A stretch of 47,257 bases of DNA from a virus: positions 1 through 47,257 of IMG/VR virus record IMGVR_UViG_3300046535_000311; one strand, written 5' to 3'. This document shows positions 29,846 through 47,257 of the stretch, piece by piece. The notes under the pieces were generated by a model, which saw only the letters and a program-made list of their open reading frames with translations, did not search any database and had not been told where the DNA came from. Numbering within the stretch: the first letter of the stretch is position 1; the number at the start of each line of letters is the position of its first letter. The translations under genes and the position numbers were made by a program.

Positions 29846-30178
29846 ATGCAATACACGCTACAGAACAAGGCAGGTCAGCCAATACGTATGTTCGTTCTAG
29901 CCAAGGTAGCCATTGAATGGCTTAGGCTAGACGCCACAAACAAGGTAAGGCTAGTGCGTATGGTGCGCGACGGTAAAGAAGTAGACATTACCGATGGGCC
30001 ATACATGACACTTTGCACAGCATGCTCCAAGCTAACCAAGCTTGAAGGATTGTGCTATGCCTGTAGACGTAGGGGACAAAACAAGAGAAGCCACACTTGT
30101 CCGAAGTGTGGCTTCTCCTTTCCTTGCGGCTCTAAGCCGCTACCGTCTTCGTCTACAAGCTCGCAAGCGCCAGCTTGA
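29846..30178 (+). CDS. Zinc-ribbon protein (110 aa)
   Basis: The ATG has an AAGGA site 6 bases upstream. The first 50 residues form a small beta/helix domain. Two or three zinc knuckles follow (CTACSK, CYACRR, CPKCGFSF). The C-terminal tail is Ser/Pro/Ala-rich and low complexity. DNA or RNA binding is likely from the ribbon. Its last 26 bases overlap the end of the convergent DUF932 gene. A 14-bp hairpin coding for part of its last zinc knuckle appears to serve as that gene's terminator. Confidence 0.65.
   Translation: MQYTLQNKAGQPIRMFVLAKVAIEWLRLDATNKVRLVRMVRDGKEVDITDGPYMTLCTACSKLTKLEGLCYACRRRGQNKRSHTCPKCGFSFPCGSKPLPSSSTSSQAPA
30085..30117 (-). terminator. Intrinsic terminator for the leftward DUF932 gene
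   Basis: A perfect 14-bp stem (arms 30085-30098 and 30104-30117) with a 5-base loop is followed on the minus strand by TTGTTTTG. It lies about 35 bases beyond the stop of the leftward gene and entirely inside the zinc-ribbon coding sequence of the opposing gene. On the plus strand it is followed by a weaker CTTTCCTT, so it may act in both directions. Confidence 0.75.
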
Positions 30179-31181
30179 ACACTTGCCCCTTCTGCTTATC
30201 TGCTGCTCCGAACAGGTTCGATTGAGTCCGCTCCGCACTGCCAAGGCTTGCCTTGCCCCTTCCGCTAGCGTGGTCGAGCCAGTCCGTGACAGCTTGCGTG
30301 CCTGTCCATGCATTGGCCCCGAACACTGCTGCACACTTCTCGCTATGGAACACCCGGAGCCATTGCGCCACGATGTCATTGCGCTTCTCTCTCCACCTTG
30401 CTTCGGTGTCTGCCGCTGCGCCTTCACCTAGCGGCCATAGCGCGCTGAACGTGACTTGGAAGAAGGAGTATGCGTCTGCCTCAGTCCATCCCCTGGCCAC
30501 TAGCGCCCTTGCCTCCTCTTCGAACTTGGCTACTGCCTTGTCCGCGAAACCGAGCACAAGCTGTGCAGTCGCCAGCTTGTCCTTCATCGCTTGTGCGTCC
30601 CCGCCAGCGCGGTGGATGAAGCGCACACCCTTGGACAAGTCGCGCTCACTCAGTCTCAACGTGTTGGCGCATACGATGCGCACCGTTGTCGGATAGCAAC
30701 TGAAGGCTGCCGTCCCGCCGTGGCCATTAGCTACGGCTACGTAGGTGGCAACGCGATCGCCCTTGGGCAACTCGATGTCCCGCGGCATTCTCATGAGAGA
30801 CCAGAAACGCTTGCCTCCGAACAAGGTCCCGGTTGACTCGCACACCATGGCGCGATCCGGGCCGGCGAGTCCATCGGCGAACCGCGCTACGTCCAGGTTC
30901 TCCACTGGCACGTAATCCTTCTGAACGATGCCGAGAAAGGCGCCGTTGTCCTTGCGGCAGTGGGCGAAGTGATCCTCAATCCTTGCCGTGTTGCCAGCGA
31001 ACGCCGAACCATCGTTTGGCACAGCGCGATACAACGGTTGCAGTTCCGTTGCCCAATCACACCCGATCAGCTTGGCGGCATCCTCAGCGCCGATGCCCGA
31101 GGGCAACTCTTGCCCGAGTCCATGCCATGCCAGCTTGCCAACGTCTGCCATCCTGTCGCTTTCTTCTAAGCCATGTCCCAT
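30153..31181 (-). CDS. DUF932 / TIGR03299 phage-plasmid protein (342 aa)
   Basis: The ATG at 31181 (MGHGLEE) is the family's usual type of start. The N-terminus continues with W.GLG, followed by LYRAV.NDGS. Later come LGIVQKDYVPVEN, GGKRFWSLMRMP, VANGHGGTAAF and TVRIVCANTL, which are the conserved blocks of DUF932. The C-terminal part has an ARWREKRNDIVAQWLRVFH helix and the family's closing TQSNLFG. The biochemical role of DUF932 proteins is unsettled. They are common on plasmids and phages. It has its own promoter (31270-31242) and a terminator within the convergent gene. Confidence 0.85.
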   Translation of the reverse strand: MGHGLEESDRMADVGKLAWHGLGQELPSGIGAEDAAKLIGCDWATELQPLYRAVPNDGSAFAGNTARIEDHFAHCRKDNGAFLGIVQKDYVPVENLDVARFADGLAGPDRAMVCESTGTLFGGKRFWSLMRMPRDIELPKGDRVATYVAVANGHGGTAAFSCYPTTVRIVCANTLRLSERDLSKGVRFIHRAGGDAQAMKDKLATAQLVLGFADKAVAKFEEEARALVARGWTEADAYSFFQVTFSALWPLGEGAAADTEARWREKRNDIVAQWLRVFHSEKCAAVFGANAWTGTQAVTDWLDHASGRGKASLGSAERTQSNLFGAADKQKGQVFKLALASL

Positions 31182-31237
31182 TGGTCTACCTACTCTTTCG
31201 GTGTAGCGGTTCCCAAGCAAAGCGCCCAGGAATCCGA

Positions 31238-34093: not shown

Positions 34094-36043
34094 ATGCTCC
34101 AGACGGTTGAAGTAGACGTGACGCCTGACCTGCGCGCGTTCATCGTGCGCGGCGGTGCCCATAGAGGCGGGGACGATCTACACCGTCTGGTCTCCTCCTG
34201 GCCCGGTTGGCGGAGGCTCCCTGCTTCAGGGAGTCTCCCGGGCTTCGGTCCATGCTCGATCTACAAAGGACCAGCTTGGGCTAGCAGTGTTATCCCACTG
34301 CTGAACTCCACAATCCAAGGTAAATGGAGTGATAAGGCTAGAGAGTTTGCATTGTCCATTCGTAAGCGAATGCAGACTGTTCAAGCTCTACTAGCTAACA
34401 AGGATAAGCTGTTTTCTCAAAACGATCCTGATGCTTATCCTACGCCACGCAAGCCATTTGCTCATCAAGCCAGGGGTGCAGAAGCCATAGCCGTATTGGA
34501 TGGCAAGGCCCTGCTTGGCGATGACATGGGGATTGGTAAAACGTCTACCGCTCTATGGGCTTGGTGGTGTGGACCAGACGAATACAAACGCTTGCTAGTT
34601 CTTTGTCCTAAGTCTAGCAAGTATAACTGGCGACAAGAGATTGCACTCACGCTTGCAGAGCCAGAACAGTTGCCAGTGTTCGTGATCGATGGCACGCCTA
34701 AGCAGCGCGAGGCCATCATCCAGGCTATCAAAGCCGATCAGCATGCATGGCAAGTCGTAGTAATCAACTATGACTTGATGCAATACCTTAGCGAACCACA
34801 GTGGGAATGGCTAAGGGCTTGGCCTGACTCGATGATCTGTGATGAGTCACACTATCTCAAGTCCATCAAGTCAGAGCGGACAAAGCTAGTGATGGAGATC
34901 TGTCAATACGCAAACCCTGAGTTTCGCGTATTGATGTCAGGAACTCCAATCCGTAACATGGTTGATGATCTCTATGCACAATCAGAGATCATTCACCCTG
35001 GCACTTGGGCTAGCTATGCAGACTTCTGCAATCGGCATATGGTCATGGTGCCGATGAACTTCGCTAACATGCCGAAGTATAAGAAGGTTCAGATACCTCG
35101 CGGTAGCAAGAACCTTGACCAGTTGAATGCAGTCATGAACACCTTCCAGATTCGCAGGATGAAGGAAGAGGTTACTGACATGCCACCTAAGTCTTACTCG
35201 CAACCTCTGTTGGAGTTGGAAGGGCCATATCTCCAGGTATACAAGGAGATGAAGGAGTTTGCGCTAATCGAACTCAGAGCGTTGATGGCCAAGGCAAAGC
35301 CCAATCCTGACTGTGAGGAGTGCAAGGGCTCCGGCTTGGTCAGCCAATCGATTGACGAACCGTTGGCCGAGTGTGGCTGCACAGCGCCGACGATGGGGCC
35401 TGATGCGCTCGCCTTCTCTCCGATGGCCCGCTCGGCCGTGGAAGCAGCCATGCGCTGTGAGCAGCTTGCCCAGGGCTTCCTGACTGGCATCCCGGATCTC
35501 TACTACCAGAAGGTTGCGCCACTGCTGGCCAACCATGCAGAGAAAGTCGATGGATATCCTGGCGCATTCGCGTTCCCAGGTAGTCCTAAACTACAATGGC
35601 TACAGAATACCCTAGAGGAGTTGAGTGGAAAACCAGTCGTAGTGTTCTCCAGATTCAACGCTCCTTTGATATGGCTAGCCAAAAGGTATCCTACAGAATC
35701 AGGATTACTCATTGGTGCAACATCTGCGATACAGCGATCGGATTTGATAGAGAGTTTTCAAGCGGGAAAGATCAATCGGTTGTTTTGTCAGGTGAAGATT
35801 GCAGAAGGATTTTCACTGACATCTGCACGAGATGTTATCTTCTTGGGGCGGGATTGGTCAGCAGCGATGAACAGCCAAGCGGAAGACAGGTGCCATCGCA
35901 TCGGACAGAAGGGGACGGTAAACATCCAGATACCATTAGTGATAAACTCAGTGGAGAGGTTGATCGACCGCAAGTTGAAGATCAAAGCCTCGGATGCTGA
36001 ACAAGCCCTAGTAACAATCAGAGACTTGATGGAGGAGCTATGA
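34094..36043 (+). CDS. SNF2-family DNA helicase/translocase (649 aa)
   Basis: The two RecA-like lobes are clear. They show MGIGKT (residues 145-150, motif I), VLCPKSSKYNWRQE (Ia), DESH (250-253, motif II), SGTP (282-285, motif III) and DRCHRIGQ (598-605, motif VI, the SNF2 signature). Between the lobes an insertion starting CEEC (407-410) and ending ECGC looks like a zinc knuckle. The first about 110 residues resemble a small substrate-binding domain of HARP/SMARCAL1-like helicases. Such enzymes remodel forks or anneal strands. It is the first gene after the 34014 promoter. A G+C-rich patch covers the zinc insertion. Confidence 0.9.
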   Translation: MLQTVEVDVTPDLRAFIVRGGAHRGGDDLHRLVSSWPGWRRLPASGSLPGFGPCSIYKGPAWASSVIPLLNSTIQGKWSDKAREFALSIRKRMQTVQALLANKDKLFSQNDPDAYPTPRKPFAHQARGAEAIAVLDGKALLGDDMGIGKTSTALWAWWCGPDEYKRLLVLCPKSSKYNWRQEIALTLAEPEQLPVFVIDGTPKQREAIIQAIKADQHAWQVVVINYDLMQYLSEPQWEWLRAWPDSMICDESHYLKSIKSERTKLVMEICQYANPEFRVLMSGTPIRNMVDDLYAQSEIIHPGTWASYADFCNRHMVMVPMNFANMPKYKKVQIPRGSKNLDQLNAVMNTFQIRRMKEEVTDMPPKSYSQPLLELEGPYLQVYKEMKEFALIELRALMAKAKPNPDCEECKGSGLVSQSIDEPLAECGCTAPTMGPDALAFSPMARSAVEAAMRCEQLAQGFLTGIPDLYYQKVAPLLANHAEKVDGYPGAFAFPGSPKLQWLQNTLEELSGKPVVVFSRFNAPLIWLAKRYPTESGLLIGATSAIQRSDLIESFQAGKINRLFCQVKIAEGFSLTSARDVIFLGRDWSAAMNSQAEDRCHRIGQKGTVNIQIPLVINSVERLIDRKLKIKASDAEQALVTIRDLMEEL

Positions 36044-38763: not shown

Positions 38764-39546
38764 ATGACAGAAGAAAAGCTCGTCAAGTGGCAGCCGAAAA
38801 AGTTCGATGGCAGCGATCTGTTGCCAGTCGAATACCTCTCTGCGCCAACCGAAACCGATCAACACGGACAAGCGTTGGTTGGCAGGCAGAACGTCGAGAA
38901 GGAAGACCTGATCCTGCCAACAATCAGGTTGCTCCAGGGCATGTCCCCTGCTGTGACCGAAGGGACAGAAGGCGCCAAGCCTGGGCTGTTCATCCACAGC
39001 GCAACACAACAGGTGTTCCAGCCACCGCTACGGCTTATCGTAGTTGCTCACTACAAGAGCAATGCGCTCTATCCCAGGGCCGACAACATTGCCCATCGTG
39101 GGATGGAACGGTGCATCAGCCGTGATGCTGTCCAAGGCGATCGCTACGGGCTCTGCGAGGAGTGTCGCAAGTGCCTGGATTGGGGCGAGAACGGCCAACC
39201 GCCGCTCGGCAGCCAGTCCCATTGCTTCACCGTGTTGACCGAACACGGTCCAGCAGTGATGAGGTTCAACAGAACCTCATTCAAGGCCGCAAGGCAGTTC
39301 ATCACAACCTGGAACATGAGCCGCAAAAACCTGTGGGCTCATCCAACCGTGGTTCGTGTAACCAAGAACGAGAAGCAACTTCCTGGTGGACAGAAGACGA
39401 CATACTTCACCATGTCGCCTCTGTGGCAAACCACGGAACTCGTTCCGCCGTCCTTGCAGACGGCTGCACTGGCATACCATGAGATGGTAATGGCTGCTCA
39501 TCAGTCAGGCCGCTTTGGCTCTGACGATGAAGACGTAGACGTGTAG
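38764..39546 (+). CDS. Candidate DNA-binding phage replication protein (260 aa)
   Basis: After an N-terminal linker the protein has LILPTIRLLQGMSP and a TEGTEGAKPGLFIHS stretch. A Cys cluster follows (CEECRKC plus an upstream and a downstream Cys, residues about 119-157) that probably binds zinc. The C-terminal end is acidic (GSDDEDVDV), as in ssDNA-binding or recombination proteins. Related phage proteins are usually of unknown function. It lies between the DIPF protein and the primase, so a replication or recombination role is likely. Confidence 0.6.
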   Translation: MTEEKLVKWQPKKFDGSDLLPVEYLSAPTETDQHGQALVGRQNVEKEDLILPTIRLLQGMSPAVTEGTEGAKPGLFIHSATQQVFQPPLRLIVVAHYKSNALYPRADNIAHRGMERCISRDAVQGDRYGLCEECRKCLDWGENGQPPLGSQSHCFTVLTEHGPAVMRFNRTSFKAARQFITTWNMSRKNLWAHPTVVRVTKNEKQLPGGQKTTYFTMSPLWQTTELVPPSLQTAALAYHEMVMAAHQSGRFGSDDEDVDV

Positions 39547-39942: not shown

Positions 39943-40030
39943 CCCCCTCGGGGGTGAAAGATGAGCGGCCCGGGTGCTGGTGTTTGGCACCCGGGCCGCT
40001 GCTCCCGACCCACCATCTGGTGATGGTGGG
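39943..40030 (+). other. Three tandem hairpins before the primase-helicase gene
   Basis: The 123-base gap holds CCCCC/GGGGG (39943-39954), a perfect 14-bp stem AGCGGCCCGGGTGC / GCACCCGGGCCGCT (39964-40000, 9-base loop), and a perfect 9-bp stem CCCACCATC / GATGGTGGG (40009-40030, TGGT loop). None has a U-tract. They could be an RNA control element for the primase-helicase or a protein-binding or origin structure. Confidence 0.7.
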
Positions 40031-40051: not shown

Positions 40052-43000
40052 ATGGCTCAACAAGGCAACTTCGGCTTGGTGCGCGACGCTTTCGCGTCCC
40101 ACCCCTCAGATAGCTTGCAAAAGCTGGGCCTGGAAAGCAAGGGGAAACAGAACGGAGACTGGATCCCGGTCAAGTGCCCGCTCTGTGAGGATACTACCGG
40201 ATCCGCTAGCATATCATCCAAGAGCGGTTGGATAACGTGTCACCAATGCGGTCAGAAAGGTGACCTGTTTACATGGTGGGGGAAGAAGCATGGTTGCTCT
40301 GAGTCGAAGCCAATGGAGTCTTGCCAATCCTTGGCTAAGGCCCTTGGTGTTACCCTTCTTGATCGTAAGAAGGTGTCTAAGCCAAAGGCAAGAACAGTTG
40401 ACTTTGACTCAGAGCTTATCAACGAGTGTTGCCAAAGCCTGTTAGAAGATGAACAAGCCGCTCCACTTCGTGACTTCCTTACCCTCCGTAAGCTATGGAA
40501 CCCTCTCGCTATTGAACGCTACAAACTCGGGGCCTTCAATGGACAGATTGTTTTCCCTCAACATTACAGCGATGGCAGGCTCAAGCCTAGAGTCAGATTG
40601 TATAACCCTGGTGCGATTGATAAGTCTCCTTGGCTATTCTCAAAGAGCACAACAGCCGTTACGTCATCCTTGAACTTCTGGCCATACCATGGCAAAGAAA
40701 AACTCAAAGAAAAAGACATCATCTTGCTTTGTGAAGGAGAGTGGGATGCTCTTAGCGCCATTGTTAGGCTTGAACTCCCCAACGCTGGATACGTGGTGTC
40801 AACCTGGACTGGTGGTGCAGGTTCAGCCATCCCTGGAAACGCTATACCTGAACAATGGCATGGTCATGAAGTATGGATCGTATACGATAACGATACGTTC
40901 CAAGGACCGAAAGAAGAAGATCATCGCTCGCCTGACACTCGCAGACACACCGAGATGATGCGTAGGCGCAAAAATCTCATAGATGGGGTAGCGCGCCAGT
41001 TTCATTCCGTCAAGTGTGATGTGAAACTTCTATCGGTCCCGATAGATCCTCTGGTCAAATGGGGCGGCGATCTCAGGGATTGGGTAAACGAGCATGGTGA
41101 TGATGCAGACATCACCACCATACCGCGTTACTCGCTAAGCGAAGTTACCGCTGCCATCAAGTCTCGTATTTCTGTTCCATTCGACAAGGCAAACGAACAT
41201 CTATACGAAGAAGTATCGGTATCATGTCAGGTCTCAGCGATCAACATGAACGATCTTGTGTTCGCTCGCTACTCACGGGTGGATTGTGACCGAGGGACCA
41301 AGGCTTGCTGCCAGCAATGCAGGGTGCCTGACCTAGCACCCGAAGGGATCATGGACTGGCGCGGTCATGAAGAAGCCCTGGCGATCGCCTACACACAGCG
41401 TGACTCTGACAAATGGCTTATCGAAAACTTCTTTGGCAAGCCTAGAACCTGCACGCCATGTCAGCTTCACACCATCAAGGGTGACTCTGGCGCCATCTGG
41501 TCAGCCGGTGCGCCAGAAGGAGAAGAGTCACAGAAGGTGTTGGAGATAGTCAGTAGCCAACAGCCACCGTTGTCTGGTGAGATGTCAATCGATGGAGTGG
41601 TGTATCCAAACAACAAAGGTCTGGTAATCCTTGCCAACAAGATCATTGCCACTGATAAGAAGTATGTAGATCTGGACAAGCTCAAGAACAGGCTCTTAGA
41701 TCTGACGCCTCACAAGGCTTCACACTTGAAAGAGATAGACGACTATCTTATCCGTCGTGAACTAGATATCTCTAATCATGTAACCAAGATCTATGGGCGA
41801 CATGATATCCATCTTACCATGGAACTTGTAGCGCACAGTGCGCTATGGATGGACTACAATGGAAATAAAGTCAGAGCTTGGTTGGACGCTACTATTGTCG
41901 GTGCTACCAGAACAGGTAAATCGGTCACAGCTAGACGATACCTGCAATGCGTTGGGGTTGGGCAGCATTTTGTTGTTATGGACAACTTCAGCCGGGCAGG
42001 TCTCACTATGGGCGCTGTTCAAGTCAACGGACAACAACGAGTAAGGCCAGGACTGTTTCCTAGAAACCATGGTAGAATGGTTGTTCTTGATGAAGCTCAC
42101 CTTATGGTTAGCCACCAAGGAGAACCTGTCTTTCCCATACTCCAAGGCGCCCGAGACGTTGGCAGGGTCGATGGAGCCAAGGTCTACGGCTCGCAAACGC
42201 TGCCGGGAGCGGTCAGGTTGGTCACCATCGCCAACTGGCTCGACGGGTCCAAGCACAGCTTCGCCTTCCCCTGTGAGCACTTCCTGCGCCTCTATGGCTC
42301 ACCGGAGGCCATGAGCCGGTTGGACTTTGGCATCATTGTTGATGAGTCAGACGATGAACAAGGACCAAGTGAAGTTGCACACGAATGGAACAAAGAACTG
42401 CTCCAGGCTACACTACTTAGAGCATGGAACATGGACAGCAAGTCTATCCATGTTGACGATGATGCAATCAGACTTGCAGTTACTTACTGTCAAGAAGAAT
42501 GGGCTCATCGATTCAATGAAGGGTTTCCTCTGTTCACCAGGAAAGAGAAGCCGATCTCTGTCGTGCGCATCGCCATTGCAATAGCCAATCTTACAATGTC
42601 TCATGTAACAGGAGATCTGTCTACATGCCACGTTCGTAAGGTCCATGTAGAGTGGGCTGCACAATGGCTGGAACATACCTGGGAACAGACTGGTTACGAC
42701 AACTACAGTAGCACAACGTTCGCTTCCGAGAAGCTTGACAACCCGATCAAAGCAGAGGCACAGCTTATCGTTCCGCTAGAGATCAAGGATCCTAGGCATG
42801 CAGTAACTACGCTGTCAGCCATGATTGGTGTTCGCAATAGAGACGAGTTGCGCAACTACTGTGGCATGGAATACCAAGCCTTCGAACGTTGGCTTACCCA
42901 TTGCATCAGATCTGGCGTGTTTGAGATAGCCAGGACTGGAGAATACGGGAGCAAGGTCAGAATCAAGCCAACGAAGGGTGGGGACGAACTGATCCGTAAG

Positions 43001-43201
43001 CTTGTCCACCTGTCGTCAGGTTTCCCCGAAAGCTGGCACCCTAGATTCCGTCAGATGGAAATGTGGTTCAGGTCTGGATGTCAAGATAGCAACCGTCCAA
43101 AGGTTACCCCTCTGGACACACCATTGAACCTACTCACCAATGAGTGGATACGATGTGACAGCAGCCAGGATCTTGGTCAAGAACCGATCCCTATGGGATG
43201 A
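40052..43201 (+). CDS. Primase-MCM fusion: zinc-finger/TOPRIM primase with MCM-like AAA+ helicase (1,049 aa)
   Basis: The ATG at 40052 is the first downstream of the hairpin region and leads directly into a CPLC...CHQC zinc finger (residues 42-66). A TOPRIM core with EGEWDAL (228-234) and VYDNDT follows. A second zinc module lies mid-protein (CCQQC, then CTPC). The AAA+ part has GATRTGKS (617-624), then FSRAGLT and a RPGLF segment aligning with MCM's AAGLT and EAGAL elements. It also has DEAH (680-683), sensor-1 Asn728 in VTIAN, and MSRLD (754-758) in place of MCM's LSRFD arginine finger. A winged-helix-like C-terminus ends it. It would prime and unwind DNA. A G+C-rich block covers 42150-42320. 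Confidence 0.85.
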   Translation: MAQQGNFGLVRDAFASHPSDSLQKLGLESKGKQNGDWIPVKCPLCEDTTGSASISSKSGWITCHQCGQKGDLFTWWGKKHGCSESKPMESCQSLAKALGVTLLDRKKVSKPKARTVDFDSELINECCQSLLEDEQAAPLRDFLTLRKLWNPLAIERYKLGAFNGQIVFPQHYSDGRLKPRVRLYNPGAIDKSPWLFSKSTTAVTSSLNFWPYHGKEKLKEKDIILLCEGEWDALSAIVRLELPNAGYVVSTWTGGAGSAIPGNAIPEQWHGHEVWIVYDNDTFQGPKEEDHRSPDTRRHTEMMRRRKNLIDGVARQFHSVKCDVKLLSVPIDPLVKWGGDLRDWVNEHGDDADITTIPRYSLSEVTAAIKSRISVPFDKANEHLYEEVSVSCQVSAINMNDLVFARYSRVDCDRGTKACCQQCRVPDLAPEGIMDWRGHEEALAIAYTQRDSDKWLIENFFGKPRTCTPCQLHTIKGDSGAIWSAGAPEGEESQKVLEIVSSQQPPLSGEMSIDGVVYPNNKGLVILANKIIATDKKYVDLDKLKNRLLDLTPHKASHLKEIDDYLIRRELDISNHVTKIYGRHDIHLTMELVAHSALWMDYNGNKVRAWLDATIVGATRTGKSVTARRYLQCVGVGQHFVVMDNFSRAGLTMGAVQVNGQQRVRPGLFPRNHGRMVVLDEAHLMVSHQGEPVFPILQGARDVGRVDGAKVYGSQTLPGAVRLVTIANWLDGSKHSFAFPCEHFLRLYGSPEAMSRLDFGIIVDESDDEQGPSEVAHEWNKELLQATLLRAWNMDSKSIHVDDDAIRLAVTYCQEEWAHRFNEGFPLFTRKEKPISVVRIAIAIANLTMSHVTGDLSTCHVRKVHVEWAAQWLEHTWEQTGYDNYSSTTFASEKLDNPIKAEAQLIVPLEIKDPRHAVTTLSAMIGVRNRDELRNYCGMEYQAFERWLTHCIRSGVFEIARTGEYGSKVRIKPTKGGDELIRKLVHLSSGFPESWHPRFRQMEMWFRSGCQDSNRPKVTPLDTPLNLLTNEWIRCDSSQDLGQEPIPMG

Positions 43202-43391
43202 GTTCGACCGCCAATACAACCGGCTAAGATCGAAGAAGGATGCAGCCAGCGAAAGCTGTTGGCAATCTTGCCAACAGCTTGAGTCTTGGATTCGGGAGAA
43301 AACAGCTAAGCGTCCTATCACTCCGATTGAACTGGATAACATCTTCATCGCTGCAAGGAAGAAGATGCATTCTATCTTGCTGGCATGGTAA
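43140..43391 (+). CDS. Small helical protein (83 aa)
   Basis: It overlaps the end of the primase-helicase gene by 62 bases. It is a basic helical protein with CWQSC (about residue 40) and ITPIELDNIFIAARKKM. No family was recognised. It is directly coupled to the resolvase gene (ATGGTAA overlap). Confidence 0.5.
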   Translation: MSGYDVTAARILVKNRSLWDEFDRQYNRLRSKKDAASESCWQSCQQLESWIREKTAKRPITPIELDNIFIAARKKMHSILLAW

Positions 43392-43819
43392 ACAACCTGT
43401 CTCATAGAATGACCAACAAACTTGAAGCGGACTTCCGCGCTGTTGCTAGACAACTCTATGACATGCAGATTGCCTACATCTTCAAGGTTCCTGAAGAGAT
43501 GCAGCAGACGCCATGTGACTTCTTCGGTTTCACTACTAATGGGATTGCAATCCTCATAGAGTGCAAACAAGTCAACAGGAATGCATTACCGATTGGTGTA
43601 TCCAATGGGTTGGCGCCACACCAATGGATTCACCTACGTCAAGCCCATCGTTGTGGCACGCACGCCTTCCTGATCTGGCGGCGCGGCGAGGAAACGGCCG
43701 TGCTCCCCTTCTCCGTATGCCTGGAGCTAACGGAGGATAGGAAGTCGATTGCGTGGTCGGACGCCAAGCGTTACGTATGCAACAGCTTGCAGACTGCTTT
43801 TATAGAGCAGCTTTCTTGA
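43385..43819 (+). CDS. RecU-like Holliday junction resolvase (144 aa)
   Basis: The nuclease core reads PCDFFGF (Asp45) and AILIECK (Glu59, Lys61). An upstream Glu14 in NKLEADF completes the E-D-ExK pattern of RecU/PD-(D/E)xK resolvases. LAPHQWIHLRQAHRCGTHAF is the family's HQ...L....GG-like segment. It would cut branched DNA before packaging or in recombination. An in-frame ATG at 43409 is an alternative start. Its end overlaps the convergent sigma-like gene by 20 bases. Confidence 0.8.
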   Translation: MVNNLSHRMTNKLEADFRAVARQLYDMQIAYIFKVPEEMQQTPCDFFGFTTNGIAILIECKQVNRNALPIGVSNGLAPHQWIHLRQAHRCGTHAFLIWRRGEETAVLPFSVCLELTEDRKSIAWSDAKRYVCNSLQTAFIEQLS

Positions 43820-45538: not shown

Positions 45539-47257
45539 TGGTTGACTCGACTGAGGAAGTTGCGGGCAAGGTCCGCGGCCCGCTCGTTTGCTTCGGACCT
45601 TGGCATTGTCCCCTCACGGGCACGTTGCATCAAGTCGCTGATGGTCTGCTTGGCCCGCTGAAGCTGTTGGTGTAGCTGGTGGTCCTGTGCAGCCGGGTGC
45701 TGCCCTGCGGCCTTGGCCGAACCGATCCGCTGCTCCACGTCGGCCGACAGCTTGAACAGTTGGTCCACGCTCCGCGACTGACGGAAGGGTTCAGTGAGGA
45801 AGCTGCCGGCGATCGGTATGCGCGACGGCGAAACCTCTCCGTGAGCCACGCCGGCAAGCTGTGCCATCGTGGTGGCCAAGTCTTCTGTGCGTCCAACGAT
45901 GCCACCAGTGAACCGATCGATCTGATGCTCAGCCATCATCGGAGAGATGTCGTATCCGACAAATCCCAAGGCTTGAGCTACCATCTTGCCATACCATCTG
46001 GTGTATGCAGTCTGTTGATCGATAGGCTTTCGGTTCTCTCTCATCCATGCAGGAACGATATCCTTGCCAGTGAAGAAGTCATGGTTGGATATGCCTTCAA
46101 CAAGTGGACGCATGATCGATGGCATCCATTGTGATGGCAAAAAGGACTGGACAACATCCATCATGGTGTTGGCTACACCAATAGGATCTTGTCTATTAGC
46201 TTGTTCAAGGATCAGTTCTGGAATCTTGGCGAATACCTTGCCGATTTCGAATGGTAGTGGGATCCGCAAAGGAGTTCCCAATCCAAGGTCAAGGTGCAAG
46301 AAGTTGAACCGTTCGTAGTCTGGTAGTTCACGGAACCATTTCTTATCCTGGTTGAGCCACCATAGTGCCATGGCTGGCATGCCAATACCAACCATGCCTC
46401 GGATAAGTGCCCGAGATCGGGCACTTGCTCCATATGCTCCTCCAAGAGTCTTGGCAAAGCGTGCCGATCCTGCAATGGATGCAGTGAAGTATGGCACCAT
46501 TCGATTCAGGACGCGAGCAAGAACGCCTGCACGGGTGAAGTTAGCGGTAATCTCCTTGGCTGCTTCCAAGCCAAGCATGTTGGCTTCGAACTCACTTGCG
46601 TTGGTGTTCTTCAGTGCATTGTCTCTTGCTGTCTTGAATGCACGGAAGCGCAACACTTCTTCACCAGTGCCAAGCATGTCGGCCAACTTGCCGTATGCAT
46701 GCTTGATGATATTCTTGACGGAACGCTCACGGCCAAGCAGTTCCGCTGCCGTGCGCCCGGCTGCAATCTCTCCAGCAAAGTAAGTGGTTCCCTTGCCGCC
46801 AATGTTCTCGAACAAGTCAAGTTCAGGACTACCCTTCATCACTTCAAGCGATGTAGCGATAGCCTTACCAGCAGCCGAGAAGATGCCAAGTGGCATACTC
46901 TCTTCTGAGTAGAGGTAGAAGGTAGCCGTGTCGCGGACGATGTTCCTGGCCACGAAGCCGGGAGCCAGCACGGTAGCGCCAGCACGAAGCGCCTTGCTCG
47001 GGATGTCGATAGCTGCTTGGATGAACGATGGCAGCTTGTCGATTATCATCTGTGGTTGATCTACACCCATGAGCATATCATAGGTGTCAACATCAACCTC
47101 ATACCATTGTAGTGTATGATTCATCCTCTCAGCTTGACCCTGAGCAAACAGAGTTGGCAACTCTTTTATGTCTGCATCAGTGAAGTGAGGAGTGAATGCA
47201 ATGATCGGCTTGCTACCTTTTGGCATCACTGCTTGAGAGAACATGGTAAGCGATCCG
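45535..47257 (-). CDS. Giant polyvalent virion protein, C-terminal part (from codon 1,358 of 1,877)
   Basis: This is the continuation of the gene starting at 4073. Bases 47096-47257 duplicate 1-162. Within it, from about residue 1400, an LPD38-like region is recognisable: VARNIVRDTATFYLY, a long helical stretch, a FTRAGVLARVLNRMVPYFTAS segment, and hydrophobic helices around MPAMALWWLNQ. Further motifs are LRIPLPFEIGKVF and a FLPSQWMPSIMRPLVE stretch. LPD38 is a family of polyvalent-protein-associated domains typical of giant phage proteins. The tail is a charged coiled coil. It ends with a TGA overlapping the next ATG. Confidence 0.85.
   Translation of the reverse strand, partial: GSLTMFSQAVMPKGSKPIIAFTPHFTDADIKELPTLFAQGQAERMNHTLQWYEVDVDTYDMLMGVDQPQMIIDKLPSFIQAAIDIPSKALRAGATVLAPGFVARNIVRDTATFYLYSEESMPLGIFSAAGKAIATSLEVMKGSPELDLFENIGGKGTTYFAGEIAAGRTAAELLGRERSVKNIIKHAYGKLADMLGTGEEVLRFRAFKTARDNALKNTNASEFEANMLGLEAAKEITANFTRAGVLARVLNRMVPYFTASIAGSARFAKTLGGAYGASARSRALIRGMVGIGMPAMALWWLNQDKKWFRELPDYERFNFLHLDLGLGTPLRIPLPFEIGKVFAKIPELILEQANRQDPIGVANTMMDVVQSFLPSQWMPSIMRPLVEGISNHDFFTGKDIVPAWMRENRKPIDQQTAYTRWYGKMVAQALGFVGYDISPMMAEHQIDRFTGGIVGRTEDLATTMAQLAGVAHGEVSPSRIPIAGSFLTEPFRQSRSVDQLFKLSADVEQRIGSAKAAGQHPAAQDHQLHQQLQRAKQTISDLMQRAREGTMPRSEANERAADLARNFLSRVNQ
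47096..47257. repeat. Terminal overlap, right copy (matches 1-162)
   Basis: This is the second copy of the end overlap. Differences from the left copy lie at the positions equivalent to 15, 17 and 36, all silent in the giant gene. Removing one copy gives a circle of about 47,095 bp. Confidence 0.9.

Follow-up and report, generated by a model that had tools for sequence, protein, structure and literature searches.

A TOPRIM primase–MCM fusion, a putative replicative primase-helicase, in a phage clade with no detectable DNA polymerase

The window, meaning the whole stretch of DNA analyzed here, is the 47,257 nucleotide IMG/VR virus record IMGVR_UViG_3300046535_000311. On its plus strand lie, in order, a SNF2-family helicase/translocase (34094–36043; Pfam SNF2-rel_dom, 3.2e-30), a Pam3 gp34-like putative single-stranded-DNA-binding protein (SSB; 38764–39546; Pfam Pam3_Gp34, 6.7e-19), a TOPRIM–MCM fusion that constitutes a putative replicative primase-helicase (40052–43201; ORF, profiles and structural model), and a RecU-like Holliday-junction resolvase (43385–43819; phrog_843, 8.1e-17; Pfam RecU, 2.2e-4, under the cut-off). 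This gene order is conserved within the window's clade, with the RecU-like gene present in 7/7 fully compared clade genomes. The SNF2 gene accompanies the fusion in 45 of 49 TOPRIM–MCM records. The SNF2 helicase and RecU-like nuclease had been named as neighbors in an earlier sequence-only reading of this DNA, and both are in place.

The gp34-like proteins possess acidic C-terminal tails, several relatives ending in PF or PY (DDNPF, NVPF, DMPF, DVPY, DIPF); the window protein ends in DDEDVDV, without the final PF. An acidic, PF-type tip resembles the tail of bacterial SSBs. The structural model of the gp34-like protein (pLDDT 77.8) has a plausible OB-like strand order. A match to known SSBs was not confirmed by fold, the best hit being a nucleotide-excision-repair complex (E = 2.4e-3) with bacterial SSBs at ~0.1–0.3, nor was there a sequence match; as no fold match was significant, we treat the protein as a putative SSB.

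The fusion gene runs from an ATG at 40052 to a stop at 43201 and encodes 1049 residues, in which a CHC2-type zinc domain, a TOPRIM primase core, an OB fold with a four-cysteine insert, an AAA+ ATPase and a winged helix follow one another. Relatives align to the entire frame at 32–50% identity, and an alignment-based IMG/VR scan of the first 600 candidates returned at least 203 viral stretches with relatives; this full-length and distant conservation argues that the frame has not arisen by chance. An alternative GTG start at 39974 would add 26 residues. Two observations favor the ATG: i) the starts of the relatives are equivalent to 40052, and ii) the extension would cross a strong, terminator-like hairpin. 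Profiles assign a DnaG-like front and an MCM-like back to this single ORF, as expected from the sequence-only reading of one polypeptide with a CHC2-like zinc finger and TOPRIM followed by an AAA+ domain, and the short motifs on which that reading drew (GATRTGKS, FSRAGLT, RPGLF, DEAH, VTIAN and MSRLD) all occur in the translated ORF.

Terminator-like hairpins lie immediately upstream of the primase–MCM start, at window positions 39964–40000 and 40009–40030. In the seven relatives examined (L088, L090, L091, L092, L094, L008 and L126), the same gap contains a hairpin each time, with differing sequences; the one in L126 has a T-run. Possibly, these hairpins reduce the output of the primase-helicase relative to that of the SSB-like gene.

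The N-terminal part of the protein corresponds to a DnaG-type primase. Residues 36–102 (40157–40357) form a CHC2-type zinc domain, as judged from Zn_ribbon_DnaG, TIGR01391 and cysteines that are invariant in the window's clade; in this clade the domain is of C4 rather than CHC2 type (C42, C45, C63 and C66). On its own, the window protein matches Pfam Zn_ribbon_DnaG at E = 1e-3 (19.3 bits, under the 24.9 cut-off), TIGR01391 dnaG at 1.9e-8 and a PHROG primase family at 4e-15, and Pfam CHC2 matches in 28 of 36 family members. The DnaG catalytic core with TOPRIM follows at residues 120–375 (40409–41176), delimited by a wider-family profile (A3) and by conservation. Searched against the PDB, this profile matched the DnaG structures 2au3, 5guj and 1dd9 (best 5.6e-30) across both the zinc domain and the TOPRIM core. 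Among 64 sequences, the TOPRIM acids D279, D281, D340 and E228 are kept in 64, 63, 63 and 50, respectively; D343 completes the set. Both hallmarks of a DnaG-type primase, the CHC2-type zinc domain and the TOPRIM E/DxD acids, are hence present in this region, and the PriS-type primase domain that defines the archaeo-eukaryotic primase (AEP)–MCM fusions is absent from the window protein and its family, which carry TOPRIM/CHC2 instead; a DNA_primase_S match occurred only in phage vB_BboS-125.

The AAA+ domain with its lid spans residues 559–880 (41726–42691) and is assigned to the MCM type from profiles, the model and conservation. The window protein alone has no significant match to Pfam MCM. 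Single-sequence searches (Pfam, PDB and the viral scan) being too weak, we used family profiles instead. Pfam MCM is matched by 32 of 36 family members, with values reaching 1.9e-12. A profile of the window's clade (A5, 7 sequences) queried against 177,635 PDB sequences recovered, among the matches listed, nothing besides MCMs (best 3.7e-9) except for two chains of DnaG and some weakly matching winged-helix proteins, while only DnaG (5.6e-30) and MCM (1.5e-13) chains were among the best 60 matches listed for the wider-family profile. There was no SF3, D5 or DnaB chain among the matches listed in either PDB search or among the top 50 fold matches. A comparison of MCM with DnaB, D5 and SF3 had been set in advance as the test that could overturn an MCM assignment, and the ATPase half matched only MCM chains. 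The individual elements are Walker A (617–624), the helix-2-insert hairpin (653–666), Walker B (680–681), the pre-sensor-1 hairpin (705–718, with K710), sensor 1 (N728), the Arg finger (R756) and sensor 2 (R839). The Walker A lysine K623, N728 and R756 are invariant (64/64), E681 is kept in 63/64 and K710 in 57/64 sequences, so that the Walker A, Walker B, sensor 1 Asn, Arg finger and sensor 2 Arg of an MCM are all accounted for by conservation.

Toward the N-terminus of the ATPase, the correspondence to MCM is partial at the level of sequence: neither Pfam MCM_OB nor the helical domain A (Pfam MCM_N) matched the window protein or its family. The TOPRIM domain shortly precedes the OB fold, and the primase occupies the position of MCM domain A. 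As domain A is undetected, we class the protein as an MCM-type core within a fusion rather than as a canonical MCM.

A full-length AlphaFold2 model built from 64 sequences (mean pLDDT 90.0, pTM 0.69) bears on the same question. Its 50 best PDB fold matches in Foldseek are all MCM chains, with E down to 1.1e-18 over ~550–770 aligned columns at 12–16% identity; since the AAA+ part alone comprises ~320 residues, these matches must include the N-terminal tier. The two inserts specific to MCMs, which the sequence-only reading had proposed to look for in a predicted structure, are both found. The helix-2-insert hairpin is formed by strands 653–658 and 661–666, flanked by short helices 648–651 and 668–671; in the wider-family profile search, this segment of the family is aligned to its SsoMCM counterpart. 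The pre-sensor-1 hairpin is formed by strands 705–710 and 713–718 and carries K710. Both hairpins are assigned from model secondary structure and sequence alignment rather than from a residue-level fold superposition. Residues 387–533 (41210–41650) form an OB fold with an inserted four-cysteine element, like the N-terminal tier of MCMs, according to model secondary structure and the fold matches. The cysteines C412, C420, C423 and C467, kept in 63–64 of 64 sequences, sit between strands of the OB-like barrel; the model strands, the cysteines and the length of the fold matches together identify an N-terminal OB fold with a zinc element, as in MCMs. A C-terminal winged helix at residues 898–975 (42743–42976) is visible in the model secondary structure, and weak MarR/ArsR profile matches of the clade profile at positions 908–1002 agree with the winged-helix pattern noticed earlier in the sequence. 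Taken together, profiles and predicted fold, on which the assignment rests, support an AAA+ part of MCM type, to which no other ATPase clade comes as close as MCM; the earlier alignment of its motifs with MCM rather than DnaB or D5 is borne out.

Given a primase and a helicase in one chain, we asked whether a DNA polymerase is encoded as well. The window ends (1–162 and 47096–47257) overlap by 162 bp at 98.1% identity with 3 mismatches, and no end repeat is recorded for the entry. This overlap indicates that the record covers the whole of a circularly permuted genome of ~47.1 kb; the clade records G002, G005 and G008 are likewise end-overlapping, by 97, 233 and 123 bp, respectively. A gene of ~1,900 residues with an LPD38 polyvalent domain runs across the join of the genome. 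With Pfam profiles, no DNA polymerase of families A, C or B was detectable in any of nine clade records, and a comparison of 42 ORFs of the window with Pfam and PHROGs returned no polymerase-like match. The overlapping ends extend this absence to the whole genome, in keeping with the earlier remark that no polymerase was in sight. The same profiles detected a polymerase in 31 of 40 wider relatives of at least 40 kb (PolA in 18/40, DnaE in 13 of the 22 without PolA), which demonstrates that they work on such phages; many of these wider records are possibly incomplete, in which case the true proportion with a polymerase could only be higher. The chance that the seven distinct genomes of the clade should all fall among the 16/47 polymerase-free records is C(16,7)/C(47,7), or ~2e-4, a figure that shared ancestry makes too generous. 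The window's branch thus appears, from sequence, to consist of phages without a DNA polymerase of their own.

Within this branch, the GC content of the window (50.8%) differs from the 62–67% of the compared clade genomes, which suggests a different host. The phrog_1221 gene at 30153–31220 of the window has a counterpart only in G002 among the compared clade genomes and is probably the ORF behind the window's DUF932 match.

Beyond the clade, the same fusion is present in cultured phages of Microbacterium, Arthrobacter, Bacillus, Weizmannia and Paenibacillus. Sequenced phages with this layout include Krampusvirus, Wollypog, Youna2, BSP7 and Paenibacillus API480, as well as the Manatee Spring siphovirus, and a genome scan with the clade found one full-length relative in ‘Bacterium BMS3Bbin02’. 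The sequenced-phage proteins share the domain order and MCM core of the window protein and are ~20% identical to it. Unlike the window's clade, those whose neighborhood was examined have PolA, DnaE or an annotated DNA polymerase nearby; for the BSP7 gene, no polymerase was found within the span examined, 4 kb on either side. Their database labels read ‘DNA primase’, ‘DNA primase/helicase’ or ‘DNA primase small subunit’, with MCM unmentioned except in a note on vB_BboS-125. TOPRIM–MCM is a widespread family in public genomes. The sequence-only reading had anticipated an unusual replication module; for the fusion itself this does not hold, the family being widespread in phages, cultured isolates included, and the description stands for the polymerase-free clade.

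With archaeal and eukaryotic MCMs, the window protein shares the AAA+ core with helix-2-insert and pre-sensor-1 hairpins, the OB/zinc domain and the winged helix; it differs from them in the undetected domain A, the primase in front and the low identity of 12–16% in the fold matches. T7 gp4 likewise joins a CHC2 and TOPRIM primase to a ring helicase, and the primase half of the wider-family profile also matches 1nui and 1q57. The helicase of T7 gp4 is a RecA-fold, DnaB-type motor moving 5′–3′, whereas the motor of the window protein is an AAA+ MCM. A primase–MCM fusion is already known in AEP form, in Bacillus phages and mobile elements, for example the Bacillus cereus MCM (PMC5862659; McGeoch & Bell 2005 and Samuels 2009 as cited therein). 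In these proteins, represented by vB_BboS-125 gp45 and the B. cereus MCM, the primase also precedes an MCM core alignable with that of the window protein, but it is of the archaeo-eukaryotic PriS type rather than TOPRIM. In a rough tree, taken as a hint at most, the vB_BboS-125 AEP–MCM (L007, 4204–7287) nests among TOPRIM–MCM proteins, a placement that hints at exchange of primase modules on a related MCM core. With one halovirus MCM as the outgroup, the window's clade is separate (support 0.97), the rooting being weak. No literature description of a TOPRIM–MCM was found, within a scope that excluded the survey likeliest to mention one (Kazlauskas 2016, NAR).

The ATPase might instead belong to another mobile-element helicase class (D5/SF3, DUF927, DUF3987 or VirE type) and resemble MCM in short motifs only; mobile elements often pair primases with DUF927, DUF3987 or VirE ATPases (PMC5862659), and the window protein alone lacks a Pfam MCM match. 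The family members that do match Pfam MCM, the PDB matches listed, free of SF3, D5 and DnaB chains, and fold matches that are MCM throughout and reach into the N-terminal tier make this highly improbable, and we regard a non-MCM ATPase as close to refuted. A polymerase too divergent for our profiles could also be hidden among the many window ORFs without a family match; given clear PolA and DnaE hits in most wider relatives and nothing polymerase-like in the ORFs scanned, we deem this unlikely.

What an MCM-type primase-helicase does for the phage is a further matter. It could serve recombination or repair, such as the restart of broken forks, with phage replication left to host DnaB and DnaG. 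A RecU-like resolvase adjoins the fusion gene, the SNF2 helicase is near, and host replication proteins are needed anyway where no phage polymerase is found. Yet phage PolA or DnaE genes are found close to the fusion in relatives, the position expected for a central part of the replisome, and most of the wider records possess such a gene; moreover, replicative phage proteins like T7 gp4 also combine primase and helicase in a single chain, so a repair role seems a minor prospect. We favor, with a probability of roughly 0.85, the reading that the gene product is the replicative primase-helicase of the phage, a DnaG-type primase fused ahead of an MCM-type core that likely works with a host polymerase.

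From the computed domain make-up, MCM and DnaG homology, catalytic residues, gene neighborhood and lack of a detectable polymerase, we infer how such a protein may operate. It would most likely assemble an MCM-like hexamer, and the ring would travel 3′–5′ on the leading-strand template, opening the fork, presumably with its N-terminal tier leading as in CMG, which moves N-tier forward. The primase would be tethered at this tier, the expected exit point of the displaced lagging strand, and primers would be made there. As no phage polymerase is detectable in the window's clade, the primed fork would probably be copied by the host replicase, and the neighboring putative SSB would coat the single strand.

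At bacterial forks, DnaB moves 5′–3′ on the lagging-strand template, where the DnaG primase meets it; at archaeal and eukaryotic forks, MCM moves 3′–5′ on the leading-strand template. With slightly less than even confidence, we propose that a polymerase-less phage lineage replaces host DnaB and DnaG with the TOPRIM–MCM, coupling an archaeal/eukaryotic-type leading-strand helicase to the host replicase, possibly via the SSB-like protein, relatives of which bear an SSB tail of the host type. If true, the result would be a naturally occurring hybrid fork whose helicase sits on the strand opposite to that in normal bacteria. The polymerase-free clade raises the question of whether a bacterial replicase is able to work behind an MCM. 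Because a bacterial primase and an archaeal/eukaryotic motor are joined in one chain, the protein can reveal directly whether a primase of DnaG type is able to cooperate with a leading-strand helicase, a question that is experimentally accessible now, since the family occurs in phages of the easily grown hosts Bacillus subtilis and Microbacterium.
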